From: Tichowtungia aerotolerans
GTDB lineage: Bacteria; Verrucomicrobiota; Kiritimatiellia; Kiritimatiellales; Tichowtungiaceae
Direction: 5' to 3'
DNA length: 64,000 bases
Assembly: GCF_009905215.1 (NCBI RefSeq)
Contig: NZ_CP047593.1
Location: forward strand, 2,608,900 to 2,672,899
The position numbers and the translations under genes are program-made. This document shows positions 25,568 through 35,120 of this stretch, piece after piece (position 1 is the first letter of the stretch; each line of letters opens with the position of its first letter). The notes under the pieces are model-generated. The model saw only the letters and a list, made by a program, of their open reading frames with translations, was not told the origin of the DNA and did no database searches.

Positions 25568-26030
25568 CGACCAGCGTTACTCGGAGCGGGCGGAATCCGC
25601 GATAGAGTGAATGCGATGGTGTTTTTCAATGTTCGGAACTTTCTGGAACGCAGGCTGAAGCTGACGGTCAATGAGACCAAAAGCAAAGTCGCGTCTCTGG
25701 ACGAATGCACATTCCTCGGGTTCCAGATCAAACATGGACGGATTCGATGGAGCCAAAAGTCCGAAAAGGAGTTCAAGCGGCGCATCAAGGAACTCACCGG
25801 CCGAAGCTGGGGTGTTTCGATGGCGTACCGACTGAAGAAACTGCGGCAGTATATGCGCGGCTGGATCGGATACTTCGGTATCAGCGAATACTACCAACCC
25901 ATTCCACTGCTCGACCAATGGATACGCCGCCGCGTGCGGATGTGCTACTGGAAGATGTGGAAGCGACCTGCAAAGCGGTTCCGCGAACTGCTCAAGCTGA
26001 ACGTTAATATTCGGCAGATCAAAATGGTCG

Positions 26031-27472
26031 GGTAGTGTCCAGAATCTTTCGCACTTTCGTTTTGGAGTTCTCCATAAATTCTGTTGTTCGGGGCGGCCTC
26101 TGGGCTTCGGGCCAACGAGAATGGGTCATATAACTCGTCGGAGTTGGGTCGAAGCCCGAGGCCGCCTATGCGGCATTCTTCTTGAGTTGTTCCAGTTCGT
26201 AGAGTCGGGTCATGTTCAGGTAGCGGCGCGTCCCCCATTTGGTGCCTGCGATGTGGCGTAGACGAGCTGCGACCAGCATCAGCGCGGACTGTCCGTCAGG
26301 AAAGCTGCCGACTACGCGGGTACGTCGCCGGATCTCGCGCATAATCCGCTCCAACGGATTGTTGGTGCGGATGCGCCGCCAATGCTCCTCGGGATAGCTC
26401 ATATAGCTCAGTGTTTCGTCTACGGTTCGTTGCACGTGATCGGCCGCTTTGTTCAGCTTCATGCCTTTTAGCTTTTCTACGACTGCCTGAGCCTTTTCCA
26501 AGGCCGCTTCGCGGTCTTCCTGGGCATGAATTGCTTTGAGCATGGCAGCGACTGCTTTGACTTTCTGGCGCGGTACATTCTGGAAGATGTTGCGGTACCA
26601 GTGAACCACGCAACGTTGCCAGTCGGCGGATGGATAAACCTCGGCGACCGATTCCACCAACCCAAGGCATTTATCGCTGACGATCAAGCGAACCCCTTTG
26701 AGCCCCCGCTCCTTCAGATCGCGCAAGAATGCTTGCCATCCGGCCTTGTCTTCCTTCTCGCCTTCGGCGGCACCAAGAATCTCTCGATAGCCTTCCGCAT
26801 TGACTCCAATAGCGACCAGAACCGATACGTTCTTCACTTCGCCGCCCCAGCTGCGCTTCAGGCAGATCCCGTCGAGATAGACGTACGGATACTCGCCATC
26901 AATCGGGCGTGTCCGCCACTTCTCGATGCGTTCATAAACTTTTTGGTTCAGGTTACTGACCGTTCCCGGGCTGACTCGCGTGCCCCACAGTGCCTGCGTA
27001 ATATCTTCAACACGGCGAACCGACACCCCGGCCAGATACATCTCCATCAACGCTTCTTCGACGGAGCTTTCACGACGACGATAGCGTTCAATGATCTGTG
27101 TCTCAAAGGGAATGCTGCGAAGCTTGGGTACTTTGAGCTTCACACTGCCGGCTTGTGTCTCCAGTCCACGCTCGTAATGGCCCGCACGAGAATCCACCCG
27201 ATCCGGGCTTCGCTCATAGCGTTTTGCTCCGCACAGGGTATCCGCTTCGGCATCCAGCAGGCCGTTGAGCGTCTCCTCAACGGAGCCTCTCACCAGCTCC
27301 TGCAGATGTCCCCGCACAGCCGAGTCGTCAATTTCGATGATCTTTTTCGTGGTATCTTCCGTCGTCTTTTGGTCTCTATCCATTTGGTTCTCCTTGTGTT
27401 TGCTGACACACGGCTGGTTTTACCAGCCGGGAGAACCCCAATTCAAATGTGCGAAAGATTTAATACGCTATC
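26031..27472 (-). mobile_element. IS256-family insertion sequence with 8-bp target duplication
   Basis: A 1442-bp element bounded by imperfect inverted repeats of about 30 bp; both ends read AATCTTTCGCAC about ten bases in. It is flanked by the direct repeat AATGGTCG at 26023-26030 and 27473-27480. It carries a single transposase gene on the minus strand. The target is the maturase gene of the group II intron remnant, so this insertion came after the intron. Perfect duplications suggest a fairly recent event. Confidence 0.93.
26166..27383 (-). CDS. IS256-family (mutator-type) transposase
   Basis: A 405-residue transposase with the MULE/IS256 arrangement. There is an N-terminal region with VRGSVEETLNGLLDAEAD, the motif GVSVRRVEDI before the catalytic domain, the first catalytic Asp in YVYLDGICLK, the second in LIVSDKCLGL, the CxxH-like QRCVVHWYRN, and the final Glu region near NNPLERIMREIRRRTRVVG. 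Length is normal for IS256 and the frame is intact, so the enzyme may still be active. It occupies most of the element at 26031-27472. Confidence 0.95.
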   Translation of the reverse strand: MDRDQKTTEDTTKKIIEIDDSAVRGHLQELVRGSVEETLNGLLDAEADTLCGAKRYERSPDRVDSRAGHYERGLETQAGSVKLKVPKLRSIPFETQIIERYRRRESSVEEALMEMYLAGVSVRRVEDITQALWGTRVSPGTVSNLNQKVYERIEKWRTRPIDGEYPYVYLDGICLKRSWGGEVKNVSVLVAIGVNAEGYREILGAAEGEKEDKAGWQAFLRDLKERGLKGVRLIVSDKCLGLVESVAEVYPSADWQRCVVHWYRNIFQNVPRQKVKAVAAMLKAIHAQEDREAALEKAQAVVEKLKGMKLNKAADHVQRTVDETLSYMSYPEEHWRRIRTNNPLERIMREIRRRTRVVGSFPDGQSALMLVAARLRHIAGTKWGTRRYLNMTRLYELEQLKKNAA

Positions 27473-27768
27473 AATGGTCGTTAGCAGCCGCAAGGCGTAT
27501 TGGAAGCTGGCACGCACGCTGGCAACCAATATGGGTATGGGAAACGACTGGCTTGCCGAGCAAGGGTTAATCAGTCTCCCGAAGCGCAGCGAAGATAATT
27601 TCCGAAGGAAATAGTGACCGAAGGGAGCGGTTCACGAACAATGGTCTCGGATACATTATCCGGCTCAATAGAGTCGGCCGATGCCTTTCGAACCGCCGGA
27701 TGCGGACCCGCATGTCCGGTGGTGTGGGGAGGGGGAGCTAGACACTCCCCTTTACCCGATTTCTGAAA

Positions 27769-28800
27769 TTATTTAATTAGCTTGGTTGTGAAGATCGCAA
27801 GGGCAATGTCAAACAGGGCTGTCAGAATTATTTTTGACCAGAGACGAATGAGCTTCTTTTTGTTTTCTCCTGCTTTTTCCTCCTGCTGGTTTTTGTCCCC
27901 ATTGGTGAAATTAAAGTAATGGCCTTCGCCGTATCCTGATAAGCTTTTAAACACGGAAGATGACACTTTTTCACCGATTTTCCCTGCAATTGAGATCACA
28001 AAAATTGAGATCAAGAGCCAAAGAAACAGCCATTTGCTTGCAGAGACTGTAAGGGGGTCTGTGCAGTTTCCAATTTCGCAACGATAAAACATTAGAGCGC
28101 AAGCTAGAGCTCCAGTGAGTAATGGGATTGAGTAATGGATTGATTGCGAAAAAATGCGACGTTGTTTTGAGACCACTTGCATGAATCGCCCAATATGTTT
28201 GACCTTCCTTTTTCCTTTGTACCAATCGTTAACAAGGTTGACTAGTTCTTGGCCTAGAGACTGATTGATGAAATCAACTCTGCAGTAAACAGGACTCATC
28301 TCATTTTCTAAATTTTCCCAATTGTTTAGTGTCTGGCCTCCTCCGAATAGCGCATTGAGGACGTGAGCAGGTTTAATTTCATTGGCAATGCGTAATGTCA
28401 TTGTGTGCCGTTGCGGGACTTCAAAGTTAGGCATATCAACCATGAAATCCCACTTAACAAATATTGTCTCTGTGACCTCTGGTCGTTTCCAGTTGTGTGT
28501 TTGAAATTCTGCCCAAGTTGAGAACTCTTTAACCGTGTTGTTTCTATAGTTGATTGTTATGGAAGTAATACACCCTTCAACATGATGAGTTCTTAGTTTG
28601 TCCTGAACGGCATTGTTTAAATCCTCAATATCTGATGGGCCAACTATAATCGGGTTTGAGAAAAATTTTACTGTGCTGTCGGGTTTGCCAGATAACAGAT
28701 AAAACCAGGACTTAAATTCATCCTTAGGAATTGAGGCAACCAAGTCCTCGCGTTTGGCAATGGACATGCCGTCACTTTTTTGGATTTCGTTTTCTTTCAT
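27769..28800 (-). CDS. Unknown protein with three C-terminal membrane segments, candidate integron cassette gene
   Basis: A 343-residue protein not recognised from sequence. The first 210 residues are soluble and mixed alpha/beta. Hydrophobic segments follow at about residues 223-243, 256-276 and 322-342. It is on the minus strand leading away from the integron integrase, as cassette genes do. It is flanked by the inverted pair TTCTGAA (27761-27767) and TTCAGAAC (28817-28824), which could be the core boxes of a cassette. Codon use is more AT-rich than the neighbouring housekeeping genes, which fits horizontal origin. No function is proposed. Confidence 0.7.
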   Translation of the reverse strand: MKENEIQKSDGMSIAKREDLVASIPKDEFKSWFYLLSGKPDSTVKFFSNPIIVGPSDIEDLNNAVQDKLRTHHVEGCITSITINYRNNTVKEFSTWAEFQTHNWKRPEVTETIFVKWDFMVDMPNFEVPQRHTMTLRIANEIKPAHVLNALFGGGQTLNNWENLENEMSPVYCRVDFINQSLGQELVNLVNDWYKGKRKVKHIGRFMQVVSKQRRIFSQSIHYSIPLLTGALACALMFYRCEIGNCTDPLTVSASKWLFLWLLISIFVISIAGKIGEKVSSSVFKSLSGYGEGHYFNFTNGDKNQQEEKAGENKKKLIRLWSKIILTALFDIALAIFTTKLIK

Positions 28801-28816
28801 GTTTTATCCTTATTAC

Positions 28817-28883
28817 TTCAGAACGTCAAAAGTGAGCTTCGGAAAAGGCCGTGCCGACTTCCGCTCCGTGCGAACATGTGATT
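28817..28883 (-). other. attC-like recombination site between two candidate cassettes
   Basis: The roughly 60 bases between the two minus-strand genes contain an imperfect hairpin (GAGC and GGAA arms facing TTCC and GCTC with a small bulge, 28833-28866) and end in GTTCTGAA on the minus strand. The length and the bulged stem suit an integron attC site, but the box departs from the usual GTTRRRY and its partner box is not obvious on the far side. Confidence 0.4.
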
Positions 28884-29246
28884 TTAAAAATCATCACCGG
28901 GGTTTTCCGTAAGTTCAACTTTCTGGTTAGACTTTTTATTTTGTTTTAGCCTCAACTTCATCCGGCAAAGGGAAACCTGAAACAATATCCACCCTGTTAT
29001 CAATGCTACCAGCAGGAAAACTCCAGTAGGAATACTGTTTCGCAAGTCCGTGAAAATATAAACCTCAAGAGCAATGATGGGGACTATCACGTAAAGACCT
29101 TTCTTATACCACTCAGCCTTATAGAAAATTAGCCTAGCATCGCATTCTGGACATTTGATCGGTGTGAACCACGAATGGCGCATTATTTTCCAGTATGAAA
29201 TACCTGCGTCACACAAAGGACATTTTGATTTACTAATTTTTTTCAT
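28884..29246 (-). CDS. Zinc-ribbon protein with two membrane segments, candidate integron cassette gene
   Basis: The start at 29246 (MKKISKSKCPLC) gives 120 residues; an in-frame ATG at 29276 would extend into the presumed recombination site and is less likely. Two CxxC pairs (CPLC and CPEC) about 25 residues apart form a zinc ribbon. Two adjacent hydrophobic segments (about residues 52-68 and 74-92) and a charged lysine-rich tail follow. The gene starts 7 bases after a GTTAGAC core site on the minus strand, exactly as in a first integron cassette. No function is recognised. Confidence 0.68.
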   Translation of the reverse strand: MKKISKSKCPLCDAGISYWKIMRHSWFTPIKCPECDARLIFYKAEWYKKGLYVIVPIIALEVYIFTDLRNSIPTGVFLLVALITGWILFQVSLCRMKLRLKQNKKSNQKVELTENPGDDF

Positions 29247-29252
29247 CTTAAT

Positions 29253-29332
29253 GTCTAACAGTGGATTAGGTCGCATTGTTTGCGACCTATTTTTTCTTTA
29301 AACAAGTATTGTTTGTGTGATAGGTAGCTTAC
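29253..29332. promoter_or_regulatory. Candidate attI core site and intI operator region
   Basis: On the minus strand GTTAGAC (29253-29259) matches the integron core-site consensus GTTRRRY. Next to it an 8-bp perfect inverted repeat AGGTCGCA (29268-29275) and TGCGACCT (29281-29288) is followed by six T residues on the plus strand. A dyad AAACAA-N3-TTGTTT lies at 29300-29314, directly ahead of the integrase start, and could be a repressor operator. Confidence 0.5.
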
Positions 29333-30712
29333 GTGTCTGACTTTTTTATTAAAAGAAAAATGACGAGGAAAGAATCCGTATTTTGGGGTCGTTATGCTGA
29401 TTTAGTGAATAAACACGGCCTTTCGGGATATGCGGCGGAATGGACGGTGCATCGTGCTCAGCAGTTTGTATATGGTCTTGAAGGGCGCAAATTGCGTAAC
29501 GTAGATGCGACCTATCTCGATCAGTACCTGAATGTGTTAGGTCGCAATGACTCTCTGCAGGACTGGCAGATGATTCAGGCGATCAACGCATTAAAAATTC
29601 TACTGGTTGATGTAGTTAGTCTGGATTGGGCGGTGACGTACGACTGGGATGCGAGGCTGAGCGCCTGCCGCGATCTGGAGCCGACACATCCGACTCTGGC
29701 CAGAGAAGCACCACTGATGCGTGATGTTCATAGGCAGGAAGCGTGTGCATTGACTCCGGCGGCCGAGGCGCAGCTCGAACGAATCAAAGAGGTGGTTCGG
29801 ACGCGTGCGATGTCGATTCGCACAGAGCAGACGTATGTGGAATGGGCGCGACGTTTTGTGGACTATTGCGGAGGGACTTTTCCTGAGGGACCGGCGAAAG
29901 TGCGGGATTTTCTGGAGTATCTGGCTCTTGTGCGCAAGGTCGCTCCGTCAACACAGTCCCAGGCGCTGAATGCACTGGTTTTCCTTTACGGTCAAGTGCT
30001 GAAGGTGGAGCTGGGTGATTTGGGGGAATATCGGCGTCCGGCCCGGAAACGGCGGCTGCCGGTGGTATTGTCGCCGGGTGAGGTGCAGTTGTTGCTGGCG
30101 GCTATGAGTGGGCGCAATAAATTAATGGCGTCTCTCCTTTACGGAGCCGGAATGCGTCTGATGGAATGTATTCGGTTGCGGGTACAGAATATTGATTTCG
30201 ACAACGGATATATTCTTGTGGTTGACGGGAAGGGAGGAAAAGACCGGCGGGTTCCGTTGCCGGTAAAGCTGGTTCCTGAGTTGAAGGCGCATTTGACCGC
30301 GATGAAAGCGCAGCATGACGCGGACTTGACGGCAGGATTTGGAGAGGTCTTTCTTCCGGAAAGTTTGGCGCGGAAGTATCCAAATGCTTCAAAAGAGTGG
30401 ATTTGGCAGTATGTTTTCCCGGCAGCCCGGCTCAGTACGGATCCGCGGAGCGGTCGGCGCAGGCGGCATCATGTCAGTGAGAAGAATTTACAGAAAGTGG
30501 TTAAGTCCAGTGCGGTTAAGGCGGGGATTCCCAAGCGGGTGACCTGTCACACGCTGCGTCACAGTTTTGCGACCCATTTGCTGGCTCGCGGCTCTGATAT
30601 CCGTACGGTTCAGGAACTCCTGGGTCATGCGGATGTGTCGACTACAATGATTTACACCCATGTGCTGAATCGGTCCGGAGTTTCCGGGCAAAGCCCGCTC
30701 GATACGCTGTAG
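29333..30712 (+). CDS. intI: Integron integrase (tyrosine recombinase) with long N-terminal extension
   Basis: A 459-residue tyrosine recombinase starting at GTG 29333, or ATG 29351 in the same frame. Catalytic residues are present: Arg in [12 protein letters not shown], Lys in [23 protein letters not shown], and [15 protein letters not shown] with the nucleophilic Tyr. The insertion [18 protein letters not shown], between the Lys and the HxxR box, is the helix unique to integron integrases. The usual length is 320-340 residues; here about 125 extra residues precede the SAM-like core-binding domain and look like a second such domain. It faces away from two candidate cassettes on the opposite strand, the standard integron arrangement. 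Confidence 0.93.
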
Positions 30713-30998: not shown

Positions 30999-32168
30999 CT
31001 AGAAATCCCAGCCGGCACCGATGGTGAGGCTGTTCTGATACATGCTGATTGTGGTTCCTGCGGCCATCGGGCCCAATGGCCCTGCGTCATTTCCGTTGGC
31101 GGTCTGTTCGGTTTTAAGAGCATGCACATAGGCGAGATCGATATGGAAATTATCGAACCGGTAGGAAAGTCCGGTCGCCAGATGGGTTTCCATGATGGCG
31201 GGGAACAGCGAGTTGCCGAAGGCCGCGTCGGAATCGATGGGGGAGTTGCCGTGCGAAATCCCGCCGCGCAGGGTGAGACGGTCGTTGAGGTCCCAGGTGA
31301 GTCCGGCTTTGACAATGTTCTGATCTTCCCAGCCAAACTGGTCGCCCAGCGTGTCGAGTTTGTTCCAGCCGATCCAGCGGTAGTCCAGAGCCACTTCAAC
31401 ATTGGACAGAATGTCATAGGCCAGTCCCACGGTCAGCTGTTGCGGCAGATTCAGGGAATCGTCGAGCAGCTGGTTGTAGGTGTCGAACTCGGTCATGAAC
31501 TGCTCGGTGATGTAGCTTCCGCCGATCGAGAGTTTGTCGGTAACTTTCTGGTTCACTCCGAAAATGAATCCGGCTCCGACGGCCGTATCCCATTTGTTGT
31601 TCTGGGGAACGCCGGCGGCATTAAACATGTCTGTGCGGAAGCGGGACAGCACAAAGATCGGTCCGGCACCGACGCTGAGGCCGCTATCGAATTTTTGGGC
31701 GTAGGTGACGGTGAGTTTTGCAATCGACAGTTGAGTCTGCCGGTCAAACGACGTCTGAGCCCCCGGCGTACCTATTCGTCCGTAATCGTAGTCCACGCCC
31801 ATGCCGCTGGTTCCGTAGATCCCGATTCCGAGGTAGCCGTTGTCGCCGTGGCAGCATCCGAAACTGGTGCTGATTGAAGGGATGAAAAATGCTGAATCGT
31901 CGGTTTGCTTACCCGCTCCCCCGCTTAAGGTTGAGTTGATTGTTCGGTTTGGCGCAAATAACTGGATCGAGGCATCGGCGCCGCGTTCCAGATCGGTGAG
32001 GCCGGCCGGGTTGAGCAGCAGCCAGGTGGAATCTTTGGCGGAGGCAACCCCGGCGCCGGCTGTTCCCTGCTGGATCGGACCGATCCCGATTAAATTGATT
32101 CCCTCGGTTCCGAAGGCGGCGGCGCCGCTCAGCAGGAATGAGAGTATGATGGCCAGATTTTTATTCAT
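30999..32168 (-). CDS. OmpP1/FadL-family outer membrane transport protein
   Basis: A 389-residue protein with a clear signal peptide (MNKNLAIILSFLLSGAAAFG). The FadL-type N-terminal hatch follows (GTAGAGVASAKDSTWLLLNPAGLTDL, where the NPAGL motif is diagnostic), then alternating beta strands ending in an aromatic residue (AGWDF), as expected for an outer membrane barrel. FadL proteins let hydrophobic molecules such as long-chain fatty acids or aromatics cross the outer membrane. A strong AAGGAG ribosome site precedes the ATG. It is divergent from an ArsR regulator, which may also control it. A Gram-negative-type envelope is implied. Confidence 0.9.
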   Translation of the reverse strand: MNKNLAIILSFLLSGAAAFGTEGINLIGIGPIQQGTAGAGVASAKDSTWLLLNPAGLTDLERGADASIQLFAPNRTINSTLSGGAGKQTDDSAFFIPSISTSFGCCHGDNGYLGIGIYGTSGMGVDYDYGRIGTPGAQTSFDRQTQLSIAKLTVTYAQKFDSGLSVGAGPIFVLSRFRTDMFNAAGVPQNNKWDTAVGAGFIFGVNQKVTDKLSIGGSYITEQFMTEFDTYNQLLDDSLNLPQQLTVGLAYDILSNVEVALDYRWIGWNKLDTLGDQFGWEDQNIVKAGLTWDLNDRLTLRGGISHGNSPIDSDAAFGNSLFPAIMETHLATGLSYRFDNFHIDLAYVHALKTEQTANGNDAGPLGPMAAGTTISMYQNSLTIGAGWDF

Positions 32169-32308: not shown

Positions 32309-32360
32309 TTGACATTTTCATAATATTATAATTACCTAATGTTTTATTCGGAGACGCACT
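32309..32360 (+). promoter_or_regulatory. Promoter and palindrome ahead of arsR-type gene
   Basis: A perfect -35 TTGACA at 32309-32314 is followed by the palindrome ATAATATTAT at 32320-32329 and an A/T-rich -10 zone; GGAG precedes the ATG at 32361. A repressor bound at the palindrome would block this promoter, as in autoregulated ArsR-type genes. Also in the gap is a CATGTA direct repeat at about 32264-32278. Confidence 0.5.
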
Positions 32361-32666
32361 ATGCAGGAAAAAGAACGGGAATTGGCGGCAGAGGTATTGA
32401 AAGCGATGGCACACCCCATTCGTCTGGGGGTGATTGAACAGCTGGCAGACGGGGAGAGAACCTGTACCGAGCTTTATCAGGAACTGGGATGCAGTCAGTC
32501 GATGCTTTCTCAGCAGCTGCGAACGCTCTGCCAGTATGGACTCGTGTCGATTCGGAAAGAGGGGGCCACAAAGTACTGTGCCCTTCAGAATTCCGATTTC
32601 CTGAAGCTGTTTGACTGTATGCATCGGCATTTAAGGACGTTTCTGCATTTTGAAAATGAGGAGTAA
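32361..32666 (+). CDS. ArsR-family transcriptional regulator, possible persulfide sensor
   Basis: A 101-residue winged-helix repressor. The ArsR pattern is AMAHPIRLGVIEQLADGERTCTELY, recognition helix SQSMLSQQLRTLCQYGLV, then the wing RKEGATKYCAL. Several cysteines are present, notably one in RTCTEL and one in the last helix (DCMHRH). Their positions resemble the two reactive cysteines of SqrR/BigR persulfide sensors rather than a metal site. The gene ends 3 bases before a persulfide-handling fusion enzyme, which supports that reading. The regulator family is sure; the signal is inferred. Confidence 0.88.
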   Translation: MQEKERELAAEVLKAMAHPIRLGVIEQLADGERTCTELYQELGCSQSMLSQQLRTLCQYGLVSIRKEGATKYCALQNSDFLKLFDCMHRHLRTFLHFENEE

Positions 32667-32669
32667 TCA

Positions 32670-35120
32670 ATGGATCAAAAGAAAATTGTGATTGTTGGCG
32701 GAGTGGCCGGCGGTGCAAGCGCCGCAGCGCGGGCGCGGCGCCTGAGCGAAGAGGCTGAAATTATTCTGTTGGAGCGCGGTCCGTATATTTCCTTCGCAAA
32801 CTGCGGACTGCCGTATCATATCGGCGGCGAGATCGCGGAACGCGATCGGCTGCTGGTGACTACGCCGGAACTTCTGCGCACCCAGTTTCGGATCGATGTG
32901 CGCACCCGCAATGAAGTGATGTCGATTGATCCGGATCAGAAGGAGGTGGAGATCAAAAACCTCGAGACCGGAGAAGTCTACAAAGAATCCTATGACTCCC
33001 TTGTTCTCAGCCCCGGCGCCGATCCGGTGCGTCCGCCCATTCCCGGGATTGAGAGCAACCGCGTTCTTTCGCTCCGCAACATGGAGGATATGGACCGCAT
33101 TATTTCCGAATTGAAAGGCCGCGAGCACGCCTCCGTCATCGGCGGCGGTTACATCGGCCTCGAAATGGCTGAAGCGCTGCGCCGCCGCGGTATCGCAACC
33201 ACGCTCGTGGAGCTGGCGCCTCAGGTGATGGGGCCGGCCGATCCGGAAATGGTTTCCATTCTGCATCAGGAGCTGGAAATCAACGGCGTCGATTTGCGCC
33301 TCGGCACATCCGTCAGCGGTTTTGAGGAAACCGAAAAAGGATTGAAACTGACTCTGAGTTCCGGCGAAGCGCTGGAAACGGGTCTGGCGATCCTTGCCAT
33401 CGGCGTAAAGCCGGAAACCACGCTGGCAACGGGAGCAAACATTGTGCTCGGTCCGCGCGGCGGCATTAAAGTGAACGATCGAATGCAGACGTCTGTGCCG
33501 GATATCTACGCCGTTGGCGATGCCGTGGAGGTGATCGATTTTGTTACCCGTGAACCTGCGCTCATTCCGCTGGCCGGACCGGCCAACCGGCAGGGGCGTA
33601 TCGCCGCCGACAATATTTTCGGACGATCCTCACGCTATAAGGACACGCAGGGAACGGCTATCTGCAAAGTATTCAACCTTGCGATCGGCATGACCGGGCT
33701 CAGCGAGAAGGCGGCGAAGCACGCGGGTGTGGCCTATGAAAAAATCTATGTTCATCCGGCCAGTCACGCATCGTACTATCCCGGCTCCGCCGCACTCAGC
33801 ATGAAGATGCTGTTTGATCCGGAAACGGGCAAAGTGCTCGGCGCACAGGTGGTCGGTGCCGACGGCGTCGACAAGCGCATTGATGTTTTCGCGGTGGCCA
33901 TTCGCGCCGGTCTCACGGTTTATGACCTCGAAGAGCTTGAGCTGTCCTATGCTCCGCCGTTCGGCTCTGCCAAGGACCCCGTCAATTTCGCCGGGTTTGT
34001 TGCCGCCAACATCCTGCGTGGTGATGCAAAAATCTGTCAGGTTGAAGATGTTATCAATCCGGCGGCCGGTCAGAAGGTGCTGGATATCCGTACTCCGGAT
34101 GAGGTTTCCACCGGAACCATTCCGGGGGCAAAAAACATTCCGCTCGATGATCTGCGCGATCGTCTCGATGATCTGGATAAGGAAAAGGAATATCTCATTT
34201 TCTGCCGGGTTGGGCTGCGCGGCTACCTCGCATGCCGAATCCTGTCCCAGAACGGCTTCAACTGCCGGAACCTGACCGGCGGCTATATTACCTATCAGCG
34301 CACGGTCGGGATGGCTGCCGACGAAATGCCGGAGGACCACAAACCGGAGAGCGATTCCGACTACCAAGATGTTAAAAAGGAGACCCCGATGAATTTGGTG
34401 AAAACGATTAACGCCTGCGGTCAGCAGTGTCCCGGCCCGATCCTTCAGCTTAAAAACGCCATTGATGAGGTGAATGAAGGCGAGGCGGTTTGCATCAGCG
34501 CCACCGATCCCGGTTTTGTTGCCGATGCGCCGGCATGGTGCCACAGCACCGGCCACGAACTCGCCTCCATGGATCCCGGGGAAGGCGGGTCCTACCGTGC
34601 AACGGTCATCAAGCGCGCAGGGTCCCGCGGCGGCGTTTCAATGTCTGGAAAACGCGCCATGACCAACGTTGTCTTCTCGAACGATTTCGATAAAGCAGTG
34701 GCTGCGTTCATCATTGCTAACGGCGCCGCCGCCGCGGGCTATGATGTGACGCTGTTCTTCACCTTCTGGGGCATTAATATGCTGCGGAAATCCGGTCCGG
34801 TCGTGGCGAAGAAAAACCTGATCGAAAAAATGTTCGGAATCATGATGCCTAAGGGCGCCGACAAGCTGGCGCTGTCTCAAATGAACATGGGCGGCATGGG
34901 GCTGGCGATGATCAAAGGCATCATGAAAAAGAAAAACGTCATGACGCTTCCGGAATTGATCGGTCAGGCCAGAATGAGCGGTGTCAAGCTGGTGGTCTGT
35001 ACCATGAGCATGGATCTGATGGGTATCAAAAAAGAGGAACTCATCGACGGAATTGAAGAGGGCGGTGTGGCGATGTATGTGGATCATCTCACGCAGAGCA
35101 ACGCCAACCTGTTCATTTAG
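32670..35120 (+). CDS. CoA-disulfide/persulfide reductase fused to rhodanese, TusA and DsrE-like domains
   Basis: An 816-residue four-part protein. Residues 1-445 form a FAD/NAD-dependent CoA-disulfide reductase (FAD loop GGVAGGASAAAR, redox Cys45 in FANCGLPY, NAD loop VIGGGYIGLE). Residues about 455-550 are a rhodanese domain with catalytic Cys in IFCRVGLRGY. Residues about 570-645 are a TusA domain with NACGQQCPGPIL. The last 165 residues are a DsrE/DsrE2-like domain. All four domains handle protein- or CoA-bound persulfide sulfur, so the enzyme probably reduces and relays sulfane sulfur in the cytoplasm. It follows the ArsR gene by 3 bases. A degenerate palindrome at about 34636 lies in the TusA-DsrE linker. 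Confidence 0.92.
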   Translation: MDQKKIVIVGGVAGGASAAARARRLSEEAEIILLERGPYISFANCGLPYHIGGEIAERDRLLVTTPELLRTQFRIDVRTRNEVMSIDPDQKEVEIKNLETGEVYKESYDSLVLSPGADPVRPPIPGIESNRVLSLRNMEDMDRIISELKGREHASVIGGGYIGLEMAEALRRRGIATTLVELAPQVMGPADPEMVSILHQELEINGVDLRLGTSVSGFEETEKGLKLTLSSGEALETGLAILAIGVKPETTLATGANIVLGPRGGIKVNDRMQTSVPDIYAVGDAVEVIDFVTREPALIPLAGPANRQGRIAADNIFGRSSRYKDTQGTAICKVFNLAIGMTGLSEKAAKHAGVAYEKIYVHPASHASYYPGSAALSMKMLFDPETGKVLGAQVVGADGVDKRIDVFAVAIRAGLTVYDLEELELSYAPPFGSAKDPVNFAGFVAANILRGDAKICQVEDVINPAAGQKVLDIRTPDEVSTGTIPGAKNIPLDDLRDRLDDLDKEKEYLIFCRVGLRGYLACRILSQNGFNCRNLTGGYITYQRTVGMAADEMPEDHKPESDSDYQDVKKETPMNLVKTINACGQQCPGPILQLKNAIDEVNEGEAVCISATDPGFVADAPAWCHSTGHELASMDPGEGGSYRATVIKRAGSRGGVSMSGKRAMTNVVFSNDFDKAVAAFIIANGAAAAGYDVTLFFTFWGINMLRKSGPVVAKKNLIEKMFGIMMPKGADKLALSQMNMGGMGLAMIKGIMKKKNVMTLPELIGQARMSGVKLVVCTMSMDLMGIKKEELIDGIEEGGVAMYVDHLTQSNANLFI

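Follow-up and report, generated by a model that had tools for sequence, protein, structure and literature searches.

Background

All known persulfide sensors of the ArsR family belong to cluster 4 of a sequence similarity network (SSN) and carry a cysteine pair in α2 and α5, according to the section of a family survey that treats inducer sites (section 4; PMC10509353). The same section describes a peroxide sensor, RexT, with two α3 cysteines, CmtR with ligands from α4, and atypical arsenic sensors that use α5 (PMC10509353). For YgaV the sensor cysteines are given as Cys31 and Cys98 (PMC9774250), and many ArsR-type proteins near shdr sulfur genes are described as lacking the two cysteines and may work otherwise (PMC12423496). 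Among the enzymes of persulfide metabolism, Npsr of A. fulgidus reduces the persulfides of coenzyme A (CoA), glutathione and cysteine as well as polysulfide with NADH, and does not reduce CoA disulfide (PMC7969121). In the CoA-persulfide reductase (CoAPR) of E. faecalis, the rhodanese cysteine was the only one found persulfidated in cells, and CoA spans two sites about 27 Å apart (PMC9405070). A longer, four-domain protein, BF638R_0572, is known from B. fragilis (PMC6158253).

We examined a locus within a stretch of 64,000 nucleotides of the Tichowtungia aerotolerans genome (assembly GCF_009905215.1, contig NZ_CP047593.1, positions 2,608,900 to 2,672,899; hereafter the window), a genome assembled as a single contig of 3.88 Mb. 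In this locus an ArsR-family gene stands directly before the gene for a four-domain enzyme (Table 1). The two reading frames are separated by the three bases that a sequence-only reading of the window had given, with the arsR stop codon TAA ending at 32666 and the enzyme start codon ATG beginning at 32670. On balance the evidence leans slightly towards an autoregulated two-gene operon, consisting of a repressor that responds to sulfane sulfur (or to thiol stress) through a new type of sensor site and an NADH-dependent persulfide/polysulfide reductase.

An invariant residue set in the regulator

The regulator has the ArsR fold, with matches to HTH_5 (cut-off 22 bits) and HTH_metalloreg (72.4 bits, cut-off 55), and its AlphaFold model, built from an alignment of 39 regulator-relative sequences, has a mean predicted local distance difference test (pLDDT) score of 95.1 and the element order α1-α4, β wing, α5. 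When named genomes were scanned with an alignment of the regulator, 108 relatives emerged, and the best 80 were kept; 34 of them form a close group (L055-L088, 54-79% identical) and the remaining 46 are more distant (L089-L134). The best-matching named contigs were labelled Kiritimatiellales, Kiritimatiellaeota, Verrucomicrobia or Pontiella.

The sequence-only reading had made its proposal depend on cysteines being conserved in close homologs, and of the five in this protein (C35, C44, C57, C73 and C86) three are: C44, C73 and C86 are invariant in 34/34 close relatives, as are N77 and H90, while D79 is kept in 33, C57 in 25 and C35 in 8. In the AlphaFold model the recognition helix spans residues 46-58, preceded by a turn that holds C44 and with C57 at its end; C73 belongs to the second strand of the wing (70-75) and C86 to helix 5 (80-93). 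D79, C86 and H90 are spaced by seven and four residues and therefore lie on one face of helix 5. Judged from the SmtB ligand numbers, this would be the face that bears the SmtB α5 ligands at the dimer interface, and C86 would lie near the two-fold axis, so that an inter-protomer polysulfide is possible. Among the 46 more distant loci C86 is shared by 42, C44 by one and C73 by none, and most of these proteins carry, by eye, an α3 CVC motif of arsenic type. Among the papers listed in literature searches, judged by titles and the beginnings of abstracts, and in section 4 of the ArsR survey, no published ArsR subfamily with the C44/C73/C86 set was seen.

A four-domain enzyme of a known kind

The CoA-disulfide reductase (CoADR), rhodanese, TusA and DsrE-like domains that the sequence-only reading placed in one chain are all present, each above its Pfam cut-off, in the order Pyr_redox_2/Pyr_redox_dim (5-432), Rhodanese, TusA and DrsE_2. 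Residues 4-543 align end to end with the flavoprotein-rhodanese structure 3nta (E 2.1e-205). Further structural matches were to the CoA-persulfide reductase 8a56 (E 2.7e-168) and to 3icr, a structure of B. anthracis type named CoA-disulfide reductase, and the tail matches the TusA-like structure 1pav and the DsrE structure 3pnx. Among 46 full-length sequences (of 52 aligned, the window's included, 47-100% identical), C512, C587 and C777 are invariant, C45 is present in all but one, where the alignment has a gap, and C624 is found in 45 sequences. The conservation of these four expected active-site cysteines (C45, C512, C587 and C777) is far beyond chance. The protein thus combines the CoADR fold with a single redox cysteine and a C-terminal rhodanese cysteine, by which Npsr and CoA-persulfide reductases are recognized, with the TusA CPxP cysteine and the conserved DsrE2-type cysteine of sulfur carriers (C587 and C777). 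Scores against two equivalog models were below their cut-offs, with 487.4 bits for the CoA-disulfide reductase model TIGR03385 (cut-off 578.8) and 80.8 bits for the DsrE2 model NF047629 (cut-off 210).

Compared with Npsr/CoAPR proteins that carry a rhodanese domain (3nta-type, A. fulgidus, E. faecalis and B. anthracis 3icr), the enzyme is alike in residues 4-543, Cys45 and Cys512, but adds the C-terminal TusA and DsrE2 domains and stands beside a different regulator. BF638R_0572 of B. fragilis has the identical four domains in the identical order, but it is controlled by the MarR-type BmoR (PMC6158253), in contrast to the adjacent ArsR of the window. Matches to the enzyme at 1e-120 were found in 114/288 genomes drawn from the phylum, and in this sample 82 match places, counted by hand, extend beyond residue 800 and so reach the last domain. 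The domain-order survey that the sequence-only reading had proposed did not reveal a new architecture: since the chain is published for B. fragilis and frequent in this phylum, the enzyme is of a known kind, and novelty of the four-domain chain was rejected. By analogy with its characterized relatives, NADH-dependent reduction of persulfides or polysulfide is its likely activity. The further idea that sulfane sulfur passes between four centres "without release" found no support; the close relatives are NADH persulfide/polysulfide reductases.

Two observations on the enzyme family were made along the way. In another family of the class (f12), two loci (L008 and L010) encode a four-domain enzyme 80% identical to that of the window, without a regulator of the window's type upstream, and horizontal transfer is likely for this enzyme; the opposite strand of L008 encodes a protein more distantly related to the regulator. 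In L024/L045 (G035:C10) a stop interrupts the long chain, and its two halves occupy neighbouring open frames, which could mean separately encoded domains or a broken or misassembled gene.

Conserved pairing of regulator and enzyme

Directly after the regulator, 30 of the 34 close loci carry the enzyme or its CoADR-rhodanese form. The four domains are complete in 26 of the 30 (in L056 across broken frames), three (L073, L083, L085) have the first two domains only, and L082 is cut by the contig end. A divergent fadL was present at 14/34 loci; both families of the order are represented among them, whereas the seven most distant loci (L081-L086, L088) all lack it. A class-wide regulator search (345 genomes, 39 with a match) gave a similar picture for the 30 best loci, window included, with CoADR downstream in 27 and a divergent fadL in 16; the two locus sets overlap in organisms and are not independent. 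The pairing of regulator and enzyme and the linkage to fadL are real. The sequence-only reading had called the pair a self-contained persulfide-sensing and -clearing unit, and of this the conserved pair stands, whereas the SqrR/BigR-like cysteines on which the sensing was based do not (see below). It had also suggested that the divergent FadL-type channel shares the control. As a recurrent partner the channel makes this plausible, but the evidence is one of linkage, and the candidate operator lies over the arsR promoter, some 150 bp away from where fadL begins. On the fadL side, a by-eye look for a shared palindrome met AT-rich, lineage-specific stretches, and none is claimed. FadL was not named as a sulfur channel in the titles or the beginnings of the abstracts of the papers listed in a literature search, and its role as a sulfur importer is speculation. 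The genome has three FadL-type channels above the cut-off, the divergent one included, and one rhodanese besides the enzyme's domain.

Of the 18 enzyme loci fetched from outside the order (L008, L010, L018-L023, L025-L034), four (L019, L020, L021, L028) have the regulator's position taken by a different ArsR protein, which shares only the C86 equivalent with the invariant cysteines. ArsR control of the four-domain enzyme may therefore have arisen, or been swapped, more than once.

At two of the four exceptions, L063 and L066, the regulator and the divergent fadL are retained, but OsmC-type genes and a DUF4405-type membrane gene stand in place of the enzyme, and L063 additionally carries a DUF6132-thioredoxin gene. 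These stretches (L063 2042-4566; L066 4051-5893) look like a further thiol module controlled by the one sensor. Pfam searches covered three genes of L063, one of L066, one of L079 and both of L061, and the other genes were named by likeness. The genomes that match the exceptions (G346, G350, G342 and G361, the last being that of L061) had no enzyme at 1e-120, which at 86-94% completeness is weak evidence of absence.

A candidate operator and a proposed mechanism

A possible -10 box ends 28 bases upstream of the arsR start codon, and a palindrome, AATATTATAATTACCTAATGTT (32322-32343), overlaps it. At up to one mismatch the pattern AAYATTA-N8-TAATRTT occurs at this one place in the whole genome, and the control pattern, read backward, at two; within the window it is also the only site at up to two mismatches. 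Such a site precedes arsR in 5/5 genomes of the same genus, and site totals per genome are frequently near those of the control. With the caution that the pattern was derived from these very sequences, the distribution of this candidate operator suggests local autoregulation and no wide regulon.

From the gene order, the domains, the conserved residues, the conserved pairing and the genome-unique palindrome, all of which are observed, we infer the inducer, the repression, the chemistry, the direction of sulfur flow and the role of FadL as follows. The ArsR protein would bind the palindrome and repress its own promoter. Rising persulfides or polysulfides would modify the conserved cysteines, C44 just ahead of the recognition helix, C73 of the wing and C86 of helix 5, and the modified regulator would leave the DNA, allowing expression of the operon. 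The enzyme would then reduce persulfide or polysulfide with NADH at its CoA/FAD site, fed by the rhodanese cysteine, and the TusA and DsrE2 domains would load or offload sulfane sulfur. FadL probably takes part in this response and might serve as the path by which hydrophobic sulfur crosses the membrane.

Competing explanations and points against the proposed operon

The sequence-only reading had attributed SqrR/BigR-like cysteines to the regulator; a sensor of that type would form an intraprotomer tetrasulfide between α2 and α5. The regulator is clearly similar in sequence to these proteins and has a common fold (Z 13.7 for BigR 3pqj, 13.6 for HlyU 4k2e and 12.8 for SqrR 6o8l), and it resembles SqrR, BigR, YgaV and HlyU (SSN cluster 4) in its Cys-bearing helix 5 and its adjacency to sulfur-transfer genes. 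However, when its cysteines were compared with those sensors, neither sensor position proved to be a cysteine: the α2 cysteine of SqrR, BigR and HlyU aligns on E26, as YgaV Cys31 does by offset, and the end points of the structural alignment place YgaV Cys98 on R92. No cysteine occurs at position 26 (E 29, Q 5) or at position 92 (R 27, L 3, H 3, E 1) in the 34 relatives, which have their own invariant set C44, C73 and C86 with N77, D79 and H90, and the NCBIfam BigR equivalog gave 46.7 bits, under its cut-off of 155. SqrR/BigR membership was rejected on these grounds, and a sensor of that form is highly improbable, although a functional analogue is conceivable. Identity with TsoR was likewise rejected (NF045707, 32.2 bits, cut-off 115), and the name TsoR was absent among the matches listed in the literature search. 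A metal or metalloid sensor, in which N77-x-D79-x6-C86-x3-H90 would be a modified SmtB/CzrA α5 site, has more in its favour and is still quite unlikely. It would account for induction of the enzyme through the thiol stress that thiophilic metals bring about. In structural comparison the regulator matches SmtB and CzrA as well as it does SqrR, with Z up to 14.8 for SmtB-type structures, and SmtB aligns without gaps (residues 9-92 on SmtB 36-119, offset 27), which puts its ligands D104, H106 and H117 on N77, D79 and the invariant H90. In addition, a resistance-nodulation-division (RND) pump stands behind the regulator in L061. Of the SmtB/CzrA ligand set D-x-H-x10-H-x2-(H/E), however, the histidine at the H117/H97 column alone is kept as such; the other columns are altered (N77, D79 and, at the E120 position, T93), and an extra invariant cysteine lies on the same helix face. 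The α3 C-x-C motif is absent, with T34-C35-T36 in the regulator and V 23, C 8 and I 3 at position 35 of the relatives, and none of the 30 enzyme-bearing loci showed a metal transporter immediately after the regulator. The residue set of the regulator fits none of the inducer sites in section 4 of the ArsR survey (PMC10509353); the regulator is not SqrR-like, and its sensor site may be of a new type.

A general sensor of disulfide, oxidant or electrophile stress, with an enzyme that mainly restores the CoA pool or another thiol pool, is unlikely as well, if less so. In B. fragilis the redox-linked BmoR controls the four-domain protein, and loss of this protein makes the cells more sensitive to diamide (PMC6158253), but the characterized CoADR-rhodanese proteins prefer persulfides and polysulfide, with Npsr of A. 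fulgidus leaving CoA disulfide unreduced (PMC7969121). Moreover, TusA and DsrE2 are sulfur carriers and Pontiella are strict anaerobes. The thiol-type genes that replace the enzyme in L063 and L066 (OsmC and DUF6132-thioredoxin) are consistent with a stress sensor and also with the proposed sulfane-sulfur operon. Several observations weigh against that operon. Sulfur sensing rests on genetic context because the known SqrR cysteine pair is absent, and N77, D79, C86 and H90 could be metal ligands. In L079 (2823-5072) two tandem regulator copies are followed by a DUF302 gene and a DUF4405-like membrane gene, and in L061 (5001-9966) the regulator is followed by an outer-membrane efflux protein and the RND pump; neither neighbourhood is a plain pointer to sulfur. 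A site at up to two mismatches also arises in 23/100 shuffles of the window, and at the locus (before arsR or between arsR and the enzyme) the operator pattern is present in only 4/9 genomes of the sister family and 0/2 more distant ones. The related pattern AACAT-N12-ATGTT, at up to one mismatch, occurs in only 14/35 upstream regions, four distant ones (L081-L084) among them, and in differing registers. The mean mismatch of the operator pattern, 1.83 against 3.37 (sd 0.08) in Markov-sampled controls, overstates the case because the pattern was chosen after the sequences were seen, being drawn from the very sequences scored; spacings 4, 6 and 9 were likewise clearly better than their controls.

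Features of the locus and its surroundings

Table 1. Positions in the window of the two genes, the parts of the enzyme, the candidate operator and the divergent channel gene.
Feature	Positions	Strand	Evidence
ArsR-family regulator, 101 aa	32361-32666	+	Pfam HTH_5 40.3 bits; conservation in 34 relatives; AlphaFold model
Four-domain enzyme, 816 aa	32670-35120	+	Pfam domains, structure alignments, active-site Cys conservation
CoADR/Npsr flavoprotein part, residues 1-445, redox Cys45	32670-34004	+	Pyr_redox_2 and Pyr_redox_dim; alignment with 3nta
Rhodanese domain, residues 466-540, Cys512	34065-34289	+	PF00581 49.9 bits
TusA domain, residues 578-648, Cys587 in CPGP	34401-34613	+	PF01206 63.7 bits; alignment with 1pav
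DsrE2-type domain, residues 665-815, Cys777	34662-35114	+	PF13686 (DrsE_2) 190 bits; alignment with 3pnx
Candidate operator AATATTATAATTACCTAATGTT	32322-32343		Palindrome overlapping possible -10 box of arsR
FadL-type outer-membrane channel, divergent from arsR	30999-32168	-	Toluene_X/FadL PF03349 63.1 bits, cut-off 29.7

The locus adjoins an integron integrase gene (29333-30712, + strand; TIGR02249 422.8 bits, cut-off 265). On the other side of the integrase, two open reading frames (27769-29276, - strand) resemble gene cassettes, one without a Pfam match and one with weak matches below the cut-off only; inspection of two stretches by eye gave no convincing attC sites beside the integrase. 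Further out, a group II intron maturase remnant with a GIIM domain (25607-26032, + strand) is separated from a group II intron 3' end (27691-27760, + strand; RF00029) by a Mutator-type transposase gene (26166-27383, - strand), and this is probably a group II intron, close to the integron integrase, that an insertion element has split.

Possible implications for elemental sulfur reduction

Elemental sulfur is reduced during fermentation by Pontiella desulfatans, P. sulfatireligans and K. glycovorans; the authors who described Pontiella found neither a polysulfide reductase or other molybdoenzyme nor Dsr genes, and called the route unclear (PMC7356697). The fadL-arsR-four-domain enzyme locus is present in P. 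sulfatireligans F21 (L078), and arsR with the enzyme in a metagenome-assembled genome labelled P. desulfatans (L075). The locus is a candidate for elemental-sulfur reduction, or for protection against its by-products. The broader idea that a new ArsR class of sulfane-sulfur sensors (C44/C73/C86 with helix-5 N-x-D-x6-C-x3-H) controls a Kiritimatiellales elemental-sulfur module, made up of FadL uptake and the NADH reductase, is tentative and in our view rather doubtful. The unit may help explain the reduction of elemental sulfur by Kiritimatiellales. If its regulator senses sulfane sulfur, it would represent a second solution within the ArsR family, beside the cysteine pair of cluster 4, and would provide a test case for how ArsR proteins distinguish persulfide from peroxide and metal.

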